DNA of 64,000 bases from Leptolyngbya sp. FACHB-261 (GTDB taxonomy: Bacteria > Cyanobacteriota > Cyanobacteriia > FACHB-261): contig NZ_JACJPL010000031.1 in assembly GCF_014696065.1 (NCBI RefSeq), forward strand, positions 372,001 to 436,000. The letters run 5' to 3'. Every line of letters begins with the position of its first letter. Positions within the stretch are counted from its first letter, which is position 1. The translations under genes and the position numbers were made by a program. Shown one piece after another: positions 12,322-55,596 of this stretch. The notes under the pieces are model-generated. The model was not told the origin of the DNA, searched no databases, and saw nothing but the letters and a program-made list of their open reading frames with translations.

Positions 12322-12453
12322 AGCCACCCCGATGGTTTGCATAGCAAGTCGGGGTGGCTAATGAGGTGTTAAAATCACCTGTCAGCCGCCGAACTGCCGT
12401 GATCGCAGTGAGGGGGTTAGCTATCTAGGAGTTGGCTATAGCTTCTAGGTAGC
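12322..12453. ncRNA. candidate structured RNA/DNA element, copy A
   Basis: Four helices can be drawn. P1 is 12322-12332 with 12349-12359 (11 bp). P2 is 12364-12368 with 12376-12380. P3 is 12393-12397 with 12405-12409. P4 is 12420-12428 with 12445-12453 (one G-U). P1's right arm can alternatively pair with 12384-12387 around P2, so two folds exclude each other. Copy B at 31452-31583 has the same order with compensatory base changes in P2, P3 and P4. On the plus strand a T-run follows at 12472-12478. The transcribed strand is unknown. Element identity is not recognised. Confidence 0.6.
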
Positions 12454-12547
12454 GTTTAAGTTTTTGGGCTGTTTTTTTCGATAGGCAATCCTCCTCAACC
12501 AGTCGTGAGGATACAGTATCAAAGAGGTTCAGCTTTGACAAGCGTAT

Positions 12548-17999: not shown

Positions 18000-18195
18000 T
18001 AGTTCCACCAGCCCCAAACCAAGCTTCATCGCGCTTCAGCCTAGTTTCACCCCGCTCACATCTAGTTCAATCGCGCTTGAACCTAGTTTCACCCAGCTAA
18101 AACCTAGTTTCATCACGCTCACATCTAGTTCAATCGCGCTCACATCTAGTTCAATCCAGATTTAGTTCAGTTTCACCGCGCTTATTTCTAATTCA
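18000..18195. repeat. 21-bp-period tandem array 1
   Basis: About nine degenerate units of 21 bp follow one another, with consensus close to CATCTAGTTCAATCGCGCT. Units alternate between CTAGTTTCACC and CTAGTTCAATC types. One frame stays open through most of the array and would read Ser-rich heptads such as SSIALTS. There is no spacer sequence, so it is not a CRISPR array. It ends about 210 bp before the small gene at 18405. Arrays 2 and 3 have the same 21-bp period. Confidence 0.85.
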
Positions 18196-31451: not shown

Positions 31452-31583
31452 AGCCACCCCGTTGATTTGCATTGCAAGTCGGGGTGGCTAGGAGGGTGTT
31501 AAAATCACCCGTTAGCCTCCTGACTGTGCTGATCACAGTTTGGGGGTCAGCTACTCAGAAGTTGCCTAAAGCTTTTGAGTAGC
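31452..31583. ncRNA. candidate structured RNA/DNA element, copy B
   Basis: Helices match copy A. P1 is 31452-31461 with 31480-31489. P2 is 31494-31498 with 31506-31510, around an invariant TTAAAAT loop. P3 is 31523-31528 with 31534-31539. P4 is 31550-31557 with 31576-31583. Relative to copy A, one pair in P2 changes A-T to G-C and one in P3 changes C-G to T-A. In P4 two pairs swap and a G-U becomes G-C. A GGGGG run between P3 and P4 is kept. The transcribed strand is not known. Confidence 0.6.
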
Positions 31584-31722
31584 GCTTCAGTTTTAAGGGG
31601 TCTGTTTCGTAAATCAAAACCTCCATCTGAACGGTTAGCGATTACGTTATCAGAGGGATAGGAACTGATGCAAGATATTTGGAGAAAATAGGGTCTTCTC
31701 TATCTTTTCAAGATGGCTTTGA

Positions 31723-37166: not shown

Positions 37167-37350
37167 GACTTGCCTCGCAGCCCTCACCCCAGCCTCCGAG
37201 GCCCCGGCCTGCGCCTCCGCACGAAACTCGCAATCCAAGAGCACAGCAAGGGAAAGACCTGATCAGCCATACAGCTTGCTAGAGGTCTTGCCTTGGCTTG
37301 AGTTCAGCATAGCCGAGCCCCTTGCACAAGGATCAGAGAAGGCCGTTCAG

Positions 37351-37497
37351 CTTCCAGAGTTCTCTGTTTAACTCGCAGAGTTCATGGCTCAGCTTCCAGA
37401 GTTCGCCGCTTAGCTCGCAGAGTTCATTGTTTGCCTTTCAGAGTTCGTTGTTTAGCTTTCAGAGTTCTCTGTGCAGCTTCCAGAGTTCTGCTTTGCA
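37351..37497. repeat. 21-bp-period tandem array 2
   Basis: Seven contiguous units of exactly 21 bp (boundaries at 37351, 37372, 37393, 37414, 37435, 37456, 37477), each containing CAGAGTTC at the same place and varying elsewhere. One frame is open throughout and would encode Ser/Gln/Phe heptads of FQSSLFS type. It ends 147 bp before the small gene at 37645. No spacers are present. Confidence 0.92.
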
Positions 37498-37644
37498 AAT
37501 AAACTCTGGCCCGAATCCCGGCAAATCTACTGAGAATCTTGGCAGCTACGGCAAAAGTCGTTCAATTTTTCCTCAATTTCCCCAGTACTCGCTAGCCCGC
37601 AGCTTGTCCACTCTAAGCCTGTCCCTAAACTAAGGAGCCTTCCA

Positions 37645-52028: not shown

Positions 52029-52928
52029 TTACGATTCAGTCAATGTGTCAAATTCCACGCATTTCGGGCTCTTGTCAGATATATTTGAAAAATTATCTGA
52101 GCCAGCAGTCAGAATCCAGTAATAAAACGTGAGTTCATCTGCCACATCACTGCGAGTGTTGTCCTTTATATCAAGAATTTTTAATGCCGCATAAAGACCA
52201 TGATTGTTCTGCACTATCAAATATTGACCGATTTCAGGTGATCTTACACGTGAAGTAAAATCAAGGGTTGATGCTTGTGTAATTTCGTTCAATTTTACTG
52301 TCATTGGAACCAGAGCAACTCCTCTAATACTTGCAGTGTCCGTATAGCAATGGATGCGGACATTGCTTGCCTTACTCCAGATGGTTTCAAATAAATGATG
52401 ACCATCACCTATCCGAAATCTTCCGTTATAGCTAGAATAGTCAAATTTTGCTTCTCCAGAAAGTAAAGGAGATTTAGGTGATGGAACAGAATGCGCTTTT
52501 ACCTCAAATAAGTTTTGGCCTAACTTCTCACAAATTAAAACTGCAACTTCAAATGGAGAGTGCTTTCTTAGATCTATATATCCCGTAGTAGAAAGAACGC
52601 TATCTATTTCTGTATCATCAAATCGAGCAGGAAGTATGTACTCGTAACTCTCACCAATTGCTCTAGCTTGAGCTGCTCTTCGTTCATGATTAGTCCACAT
52701 CTTATTTTTATAGTTAGCTGAGATAAAAATGACAGTGTACTTGGCTCTATTCTTATAGACGTCGATCAGATATTCATATAAGTTTTTTCCCCAAAGATTA
52801 GTTTTTTCATCATCGTCATAAAAAACTTTTATTCCTCGCGCTACCAACGCGCCAGCGATCATTTCTACATAGGAGCGGTCTTCTCCGGCAAAAGATAACG
52901 CTACATCGTACTTTTTATTTTGGTTCAT
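52029..52928 (-). CDS. TIR domain protein with unknown C-terminal domain
   Basis: Protein of 299 aa. The N-terminal TIR domain (about 1-145) is a close relative of that at 50734: VALSFAGEDRSYVEMIAGAL, VFYDDDEKTNLWGKNLYEYL, VIFISANYKNKMWTNHERRA (E82 candidate catalytic), ILPARFDDTEID. The C-terminal half (about 165-299, SSYNGRFRIGDGHHLFETIW onward) has no recognised family and may be the sensing or effector-specific part. It converges with the TIR/GIY-YIG gene. ATG at 52928. Base composition is AT-rich, as in its neighbour. Confidence 0.85.
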   Translation of the reverse strand: MNQNKKYDVALSFAGEDRSYVEMIAGALVARGIKVFYDDDEKTNLWGKNLYEYLIDVYKNRAKYTVIFISANYKNKMWTNHERRAAQARAIGESYEYILPARFDDTEIDSVLSTTGYIDLRKHSPFEVAVLICEKLGQNLFEVKAHSVPSPKSPLLSGEAKFDYSSYNGRFRIGDGHHLFETIWSKASNVRIHCYTDTASIRGVALVPMTVKLNEITQASTLDFTSRVRSPEIGQYLIVQNNHGLYAALKILDIKDNTRSDVADELTFYYWILTAGSDNFSNISDKSPKCVEFDTLTES

Positions 52929-53744: not shown

Positions 53745-54281
53745 ACCAAAAACAAAGTGGGTCGAACTGAGGTCAAATCCACTCAGGTATAGAACAAAGT
53801 GGGTTAGGCCACGATCAGATCTATTGTGCCCATAAAATCATCTACGTCAGACATAGCTCAATCTTACTCAGACATAGAACCAAGTGGGTCAGACATAGAA
53901 TCATCTATGCCAACCATAACATCATCTATGTCAGACATAGTTCAATCTCACTCAGACATAGAACCAAGTGGGTCAGACATAGAATCATCTATGCCAACCA
54001 TAACATCATCTATGTCAGACATAGTTCAATCTCACTCAGACATAGAACCAAGTGGGTCAGACATAGAATCATCTATGCCAACCATAACATCATCTATGTC
54101 AGACATAGTTCAATCTCACTCAGACATAGAACCAAGTGGGTCAGACATAGAATCATCTATGCCAACCATAACATCATCTATGTCAGACATAGTTCAATCT
54201 CACTCAGACATAGAACCAAGTGGGTCAGACATAGAATCATCTATGCGCGGCATAGATGATTCTATGTCGGGGATAGAATGA
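53745..54281. repeat. 21-bp-period tandem array 3 with 84-bp higher-order unit
   Basis: About 25 units of 21 bp. The last four 84-bp blocks (four units each: TCAGACATAGAACCAAGTGG-type, then three others) are nearly identical; GAACCAAGTGGG recurs at 53877, 53961, 54045, 54129 and 54213. Upstream units are more degenerate. One frame is open and would read heptads SDIEPSG, SDIESSM, PTITSSM, SDIVQSH. The TAGTTCAATC core also occurs in array 1. It ends about 165 bp before the small gene at 54446. Confidence 0.93.
54233..54263. repeat. 14-bp perfect inverted repeat at the end of array 3
   Basis: AGAATCATCTATGC (54233-54246) pairs perfectly with 54250-54263 around GCG. The left arm is an array unit and the right arm its inverted copy, so the array closes with a hairpin. 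Confidence 0.8.
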
Positions 54282-54445: not shown

Positions 54446-54916
54446 ATGCCCAAAAACTTAGACAATGTTAGCTTCTCTGCTAGCGATCAAAAGGCTGTGC
54501 TCGAAGGAATTGATATTATTCTACAAAAGCTGTCCTTTCTGCTTAACCTGTCCAAAGAAGAACAGCGCAACCTGCCCAAAGTAGGCGACAAAAGCCGTAT
54601 CTTTATACAACAAGCAATGGAAGTGGTCAATCAGAATGTTGAATTCCTACCCCGCTCCTTCGATGTTGAAAACATGCGTCGCGAAGTAAGCCTATACGAA
54701 GGCTTGTACCCAATCTTGCTTTCGATAGCTCGCCTGCACGAGCTGGTCGAAGACACCTACAAGGTCGCAGGCTGCGAAGCCTACAACAGCGCCAGAGTTG
54801 TCTACAGCTCAGCTAAAACCAACCTTGGCGCAGGCAATGCCGCAATTGTCAGTGAACTGAAGCGCCGCTACGCCCGCAAAACCCGCAAACCCCAATCAGA
54901 CGAGTCTCAGGCTTAG
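54446..54916 (+). CDS. small helical protein with basic tail (array-associated, copy 3)
   Basis: Protein of 156 aa of unknown family, starting MPKNLDNVSFSASDQKAVLE. It is almost fully helical by eye (IDIILQKLSFLLNLSKEEQR, LLSIARLHELVEDTYKVAGC, EAYNSARVVYSSAKTNLGAG) and ends in a basic tail ELKRRYARKTRKPQ. It is not a clear homologue of the small proteins at 18405 and 37645, but shares size class, helical build, basic end and position downstream of a 21-bp array. I recall similar cyanobacterial proteins with a VGSEAY segment; no function is known. Confidence 0.78.
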   Translation: MPKNLDNVSFSASDQKAVLEGIDIILQKLSFLLNLSKEEQRNLPKVGDKSRIFIQQAMEVVNQNVEFLPRSFDVENMRREVSLYEGLYPILLSIARLHELVEDTYKVAGCEAYNSARVVYSSAKTNLGAGNAAIVSELKRRYARKTRKPQSDESQA

Positions 54917-55062
54917 ACTCCGTGCGCTTATCAGGTTCCCCCACGCTCAAAACCCGAGCACAAGGGGAACCTAAACCAAGTTTTCATTTGCTTATAAATT
55001 GGACTTGCAAAATTTTTTACTTTGTCCTATCGTTTCGTTCAGTCCAATTCTCGAAGCGCCGC

Positions 55063-55228
55063 CTAGGGTTGATGTCACAACCCTAGACGACTGACCTCCA
55101 AGCTGGTATCACCCAGTCCAAAGGCTACGACGGAGTTTAGCACTCCGGCGTGGTTCCACCCCATTCCGAACGGGTCAGGTGGGGACCTAGAGACGGAGCG
55201 AAGGGGCAATCTTATGCAGATTGCCCCT
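55063..55228 (+). ncRNA. candidate structured RNA / leader upstream of a small gene
   Basis: Four hairpins in a row: CTAGGGTTG/CAACCCTAG (55063-55071, 55078-55086), CGGAGT/ACTCCG (55131-55136, 55142-55147), GGTTCCACC with GGTGGGGACC (55152-55160, 55178-55187, one bulge) and an 11-bp perfect stem (55202-55212, 55218-55228) followed by CAAAAA. Inside the third, CCCCATTCCGAAC resembles the conserved CCCAT-CCGAAC loop of 5S rRNA, but the flanks do not form a normal 5S. It ends 25 bp before the ATG at 55254. It may be a leader or an independent RNA; identity unknown. Confidence 0.55.
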
Positions 55229-55253
55229 CAAAAACCATTGAGGATTTTCGGCC

Positions 55254-55475
55254 ATGACTCAATCGTCTGCACCCGCTTTTAGTGACAACGACTTGAACAT
55301 TCTCAGAGTCTTAATGCAACGCTATAGCCTCTCTGTCCTCATCGCCGCTCTGAGTCGAATTTGTCTCTGTCAAGCAGAACAAGCCGTTGCCCAACACCAC
55401 AACCGAGAAACCATCCGCGAATGGCGCGAAGACGCCAGCATCCTAAACAAAACCATCGTCCAGCTCAATCATTAA
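55254..55475 (+). CDS. small conserved-looking hypothetical protein
   Basis: Protein of 73 aa starting MTQSSAPAFSDNDLNILRVL, then RYSLSVLIAALSRICLCQAE and a charged end (NRETIREWREDASILNKTIV). It looks helical and soluble; two Cys lie in CLC. A GAGG site is present 10 bp before the ATG. It follows the structured segment 55063-55228, which may be its leader, and a hairpin (55490-55520) comes right after the stop. No family is recognised. Confidence 0.65.
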   Translation: MTQSSAPAFSDNDLNILRVLMQRYSLSVLIAALSRICLCQAEQAVAQHHNRETIREWREDASILNKTIVQLNH

Positions 55476-55489
55476 CCTCCGCCGTTGTA

Positions 55490-55520
55490 TATAAGGGCTT
55501 GGCACTGCCAAGCCCTTATA
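55490..55520. terminator. 13-bp perfect hairpin after the 73-aa gene
   Basis: TATAAGGGCTTGG (55490-55502) pairs perfectly with 55508-55520, loop CACTG. It lies 14 bp after the small gene stop and upstream of the convergent livH-like gene. The missing T-run makes terminator function likely but not certain. Confidence 0.55.
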
Positions 55521-55596
55521 AGGCATACAGACATTACAAAACCCGGTAGGGGTTGGGTCCCCCAACCCTAAACCCTCGCCACCAACCAACACCCTT

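Follow-up and report, generated by a model that had tools for sequence, protein, structure and literature searches.

The four hairpins at positions 55063-55228 of the window (the whole 64,000-nucleotide stretch analysed here, from Leptolyngbya sp. FACHB-261) belong to a structured RNA that Rfam 15 had left unclassified, in all likelihood a cis-regulatory leader of a known kind with an unusual expansion. It is probable that this RNA represents a new family of cyanobacterial leaders acting in cis, attenuator or riboswitch-like in character. The segment has a folding energy of -70.9 kcal/mol, for which 200 dinucleotide shuffles give z = -4.49, and the wider interval 55030-55253 has a folding z of -3.89. 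The hairpins named in the initial annotation are thus present, and they exceed chance in another sense, since the genome contains 74 copies of the element that differ by compensatory changes. Coordinates of the window copy, of two further copies and of the associated open reading frames (ORFs) are collected in Table 1.

Table 1. Features of the leader RNA and its associated ORFs, in window coordinates
Feature	Position	Strand	Remarks
Putative promoter	55005..55033	+	TTGCAA 55005-55010, 17-nt spacer, TATCGT 55028-55033
A-type structured leader RNA	55037..55233	+	full extent in alignments; seven A-type copies align
RNA family core (P1, P2, P4)	55052..55151	+	R2 match, 78.0 bits, E 1.4e-14
P1 hairpin	55059..55090	+	13 pair positions, 55059-55071 with 55078-55090
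P2 hairpin	55091..55127	+	conserved flanks CURACC ... GGCUA
P4 hairpin	55131..55147	+	conserved loop UUUARCA at 55136-55142; alignments A4, A10
Segment compared earlier with 5S rRNA	55151..55170	+	without conservation in paralogues
Terminal hairpin P6	55202..55228	+	arms 55202-55211/55219-55228
73-aa ORF, family A	55254..55475	+	ATG at 55254
Second RNA core copy	31488..31589	-	contig C31:403488-403589, E 3.8e-12
Family B ORF, 127 aa	30836..31219	-	behind second RNA copy
Family D ORF, 109 aa	30494..30823	-	behind B ORF of second copy
Third RNA core copy	12358..12459	-	contig C31:384358-384459, E 3.9e-9
Family B ORF, 134 aa	11706..12110	-	behind third RNA copy
Family D ORF, 106 aa	11369..11689	-	behind B ORF of third copy

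The family is visible at several depths of comparison. BLAST with 55050-55240 against the genome itself yields seven copies at 75-100% identity, and nine A-type units can be aligned through promoter-like region, RNA and ORF start. A covariance model of seven A-type copies (R1), which matches the window copy at 55056-55228 (+), also finds many further full-length matches ahead of quite different ORFs. Forty diverse copies with a common core of ~100 nt form alignment A10, from which twelve near-duplicates were kept out (L064, L073, L077, L079, L083, L091, L092, L095, L097, L100, L103 and L104). The RNA-only covariance model built from A10 (R2) gives the 74 matches in the genome at E <= 0.01. The R1 matches L093 and L105 looked like coding DNA on inspection by eye and were removed before alignment; they are absent from the 74.

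Compensatory change across these copies carries the case for a conserved fold. In A10, 24 of 32 pairs are changed on both sides, among them all 13 pairs of P1 and 9 of the 14 pairs of P2. Compensated cells number 202 against 76.1 +/- 8.5 in shuffles, a level that 0/500 shuffles reach, and this count, like the figures for A13 below, overstates independence because shuffles ignore relatedness and most copies are paralogues. The covariation score is 0.417 against 0.197 when shuffled (0/500), and 1/500 shuffles attains the number of further pair types. With the partners shifted 1-3 columns out of register, paired cells fall from 80% to 32-47%. Alignment A13 joins 32 copies from other genomes to one own copy; its structure was carried over from the model of the own genome, and L272 and L291 (weak or divergent) were left out. 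It has 121 compensated cells against 46.3 shuffled (0/500) and a covariation score likewise reached by 0/500 shuffles; its further pair types are not above shuffles (496/500 reach the count). Conserved structure with compensatory changes, as a leader RNA should have, is accordingly found in A10 and in A13. The initial annotation had named a lack of hairpin conservation in relatives as evidence against its reading, and the outcome is the opposite.

The signal is weak within the seven A copies alone, so the case for structure rests on the wider family. One helix used in R1, P3 (CUGACC/GGUCAG), is invariant in the seven A copies and not retained in the wider family, and was dropped. A candidate pseudoknot pairing CCCC with GGGG (A4 columns 106-109/132-135) has a single compensated pair.

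Position with respect to small ORFs is the second line of evidence. Of the 74 copies, 71 have a family ORF downstream in the same orientation, and within 1.5 kb none has such an ORF upstream or on the opposite strand; the RNA thus stands 5' of a same-strand coding sequence, as a leader does. The first such ORF belongs to family B in 47 cases, to A and D in nine each, to C in five and to E in one. The three copies that have none include one partial copy and one weak match. A weak RNA match at C28:153349-153444 (L304:2050-2145), with no family ORF, runs directly into a start codon. Pairing is strict for family B, where all 47 copies found by protein search correspond one-to-one with RNAs at 57-452 nt; many B copies are then followed by a D ORF. 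Family A has 12 matches in the genome, one of them a fragment, and three of the 12 are without RNA.

The downstream ORFs are themselves maintained. Families A and B are under purifying selection, with dN/dS of 0.05-0.13 for A (10 pairs) and 0.03-0.25 for B (27 of 28 pairs gave a value), and the values for A establish that the 73-aa ORF is real. Together with the position of the RNA, this supports the suggestion in the initial annotation of a leader for the 73-aa gene. Directly 3' of this ORF lies a strong palindromic hairpin (55489-55520), whose likeness to cyano_het_sRNA, over 55492-55544, was rejected at 23.5 bits against a cut-off of 35.7.

The same observations bear on another reading, in which the hairpins are carried by a repeat dispersed over the genome or by a mobile cassette, such as a REP or MITE. 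The many scattered copies within a single genome would suit such an element, as would the flanking DNA that some of them share, but orientation is far from independent of the neighbouring gene: all 71 assigned copies have the ORF downstream on the same strand and none falls in the other three arrangements, where a REP or MITE would insert regardless of strand or downstream gene. Compensatory changes and purifying selection also speak against a mobile repeat. Family A has no match in plasmids and family B none in plasmids or phages, and we regard a mobile origin as very unlikely.

No relationship was detected between the five families (A-E), and no Pfam or NCBIfam family exceeded its cut-off for them, C and D having been scanned in one or both libraries. 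Family D has a sub-threshold match to a helix-turn-helix model (E 0.009), and a presumed link of family E to Asr1734 was dropped. The predicted fold of family B (pLDDT 93.3) found no match at E <= 0.001 in PDB and viral libraries, and for this reason the label of DNA-binding protein was not applied to B. These data also touch on the idea that RNA and small protein form one unit, a ribonucleoprotein or an autoregulatory pair in which the protein binds its own leader. The two do go together, and the encoded proteins are small; however, with five families of no detected relationship, a single RNA fold would need five unrelated binders, and the B fold has no counterpart in the PDB at the same threshold. 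Such a unit seems distinctly improbable.

A cis-regulatory leader, the preferred reading, invites the question of how the fold could be turned into an output. Upstream, the spacing of the putative promoter recurs in TTGCMA-N17-TATYGT-like form ahead of paralogous A units; the best promoter score reaches 7.73 across the 74 copies, where mononucleotide shuffles give 6.96, and a scan with a strict promoter consensus returned zero sites. Downstream, an alignment of 14 copies from f32 genomes, five from f16 genomes and nine from Symploca contains the core, a GC-rich hairpin (P5), a U-rich tract and the ORF start region. GGCU(A), with which P2 ends, has its complement in P5, whose 5' arm is AGCC; 25-29 nt separate the two. 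Of 34 other-genome copies, 21 combine an AGCC-type complement with a P5 of at least 6 bp; 22 of the 74 own copies do so, and the remaining 52 do not. Complements of at least 4 nt are found in 22 of 33 other-genome copies, where mononucleotide shuffles predict 5.9 (one copy without GGCT excluded). Among the own copies the excess is modest, at 27 of 70 with 15.1 predicted (four copies without GGCT excluded). Nearly all own copies with P5 have a weak U-tract.

Folding was calculated for the 43 copies that have both complement and P5. In transcripts ending before P5 is complete, the P4 extension has a probability above 0.5 in 43/43, a figure that is partly circular because these copies were pre-selected for the complement. 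Once P5 is complete, it exceeds 0.5 in 33 of the 43, with the P4 extension still above 0.5 in 10. As modelled, the layout of P4 extension and P5 is that of a predicted antiterminator and terminator. Transcription would start at the promoter before the RNA, which would fold during its own synthesis, and one of two exclusive pairings would decide expression of the downstream ORF. In copies bearing P5, pairing of GGCU(A) with AGCC would form the P4 extension and act as antiterminator; were P5 to form instead, AGCC would be absorbed into its hairpin, followed in other genomes by the U-rich tract, and the result would be a terminator.

The window copy probably uses a different output. Its P4 can be extended to 55123-55155, and it has neither the P5 platform (AGCC-type complement with a P5 hairpin of at least 6 bp) nor a U-tract after its last hairpin. 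The 3' end of P6 overlaps CCUCAA, the complement of a Shine-Dalgarno-like UUGAGG, and the TTGAGG/CCTCAA complement is present in five of nine A units. Control would lie at translation if this CCUCAA, where the last hairpin ends, paired with UUGAGG as the start signal. From the sequence, a translational output is the more likely for this copy, given the lack of P5 and the presence of the complement. Whatever the output, the trigger may be a metabolite, an ion, temperature or a protein, all of these being candidate inputs only; the gene families served, five in number and unrelated, do not point to any shared ligand.

Some of this layout would also be expected if the transcript stopped at a terminator of its own and worked as a free small RNA at other sites, the small ORF being a neighbour or partner. 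In other genomes the GC-rich hairpin and U-rich tract lie between core and ORF, as at the end of a short transcript, and the loop UUUARCA is conserved. Yet a free RNA does not need strict placement before five ORF families or the complete pairing with family B, and the last hairpin in the window copy has no U-tract. The free small RNA considered in the initial annotation thus gains from the hairpins with U-tracts after the core in other genomes and leaves the strict pre-ORF position unexplained on its own terms; we consider it unlikely.

A third possibility in the initial annotation was a decayed sequence derived from 5S rRNA, on the ground that a 20-nt string recalls helix II/III of 5S. The likeness of 55151-55170 to 5S rRNA amounts to a short string match. 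The 5S model (RF00001) has no match at E <= 10 in 54900-55560, where structural and statistical agreement is likewise absent, and none in the whole assembly, in which the search found no 5S rRNA gene, so that its rRNA operons may be missing or withheld; the string, moreover, is not retained in the closest paralogues. The relic was rejected on these grounds and its probability is close to nil. The Rfam search recommended in that annotation, 5S model included, returned no family at gathering score anywhere in the window with Rfam 15. Scans of 20 own-genome loci and of 20 further loci (14 of them from other genomes) gave nothing over cut-off at the RNA.

For the leader RNA itself, occurrence reaches beyond this genome. 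In a sample of the phylum, with at most ten scored candidates per genome and strict filters, the RNA turns up in 10 of 385 other genomes with R2 and in 12 of 385 with a further model, R3, three of the latter being weak (E 3.5e-4 to 0.006). A closer scan of 15 other genomes gives 1 to 11 copies in 12 and zero in three. The RNA is present in several cyanobacterial families. In f32, part of f16 and two Symploca loci the ORF that follows it was assigned to family E from its sequence. In the named genomes, B relatives occur at 79 loci. The RNA lies upstream of B at nine of these, all in Symploca sp. SIO3C6 and SIO2E9, and is absent within 3 kb at the other 70. These two assemblies have a strong expansion of family B (L183-L261), mostly without detectable RNA. 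Family A has distant relatives in 17 of 385 genomes (family f31), with three further weak matches in f2, and R2 reported no RNA in the f31 genomes that carry them. A by-eye likeness upstream of L115 was confirmed by neither R2 nor R3. At several of the loci with distant B relatives (L116-L120, L123-L125), a gene resembling an XRE-type regulator by eye lies upstream on the opposite strand.

Repeats with a period of 21 bp form a separate feature of these neighbourhoods. The window holds tandem arrays at 53838-54268, 18022-18190 and 37332-37508. Over 619 kb of own-genome loci there are 36 arrays of this period against 0-8 for eight other periods, and they fill 33% of the DNA in 38 gaps between B and D ORFs against 0.65% elsewhere. 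Repeat sequences differ between the loci looked at. That the arrays are part of the RNA units is weakened by two of the three window arrays, which lie away from any RNA. Also nearby, at 52029-52928 (-), is a 299-aa ORF whose start resembles a TIR domain by eye. On contig C26 (L071:2273-3109) a CRISPR-like array of 12 direct repeats (CRISPR-DR5, 37.2 bits against a cut-off of 40) adjoins an RNA and family C unit.

One can imagine a genome-wide network of about 70 separately promoted tiny-protein cassettes, several with 21-bp repeat arrays as candidate binding sites, served by one RNA sensor. We hold this as a doubtful proposal; if true, a single signal would set a whole array of paralogous small regulators. 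An RNA backed by covariation, unmatched in Rfam 15 and found in several cyanobacterial families, is a candidate new riboswitch or attenuator class. Seventy-four variants in one genome, nearly all with their own gene behind them, amount to a natural experiment, and the joining of five uncharacterised small-protein families in one probable regulon offers a way into their function.

Comparison with described systems places the RNA among familiar forms. In the sections covered, PMC2864571, PMC6202907 and PMC8632094 do not describe it, nor does PMC11109978 by term count, and within the partial coverage of the literature searched there was no leader class this numerous before unknown small genes. 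Closest in kind is the Downstream-peptide RNA, or Glutamine-II riboswitch (RF01704), which the sections covered present as potential 5' UTRs of short cyanobacterial ORFs of 17-100 aa belonging to no known family (PMC2864571); both are cyanobacterial leaders before short ORFs. Identity is ruled out genome-wide, where the best match to the RF01704 model scores 13.7 bits against a cut-off of 33, with none at the scanned copies. Unlike RF01704, the core here consists of three hairpins in series over ~100 nt. A conserved folded domain 5' of genes is also what orphan riboswitch candidates and attenuators have, and many copies share with them overlapping alternative pairings and terminator-like hairpins. 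What sets this RNA apart from orphan riboswitch candidates in general is its deployment, with 74 copies in a single genome standing before five uncharacterised small-protein families.
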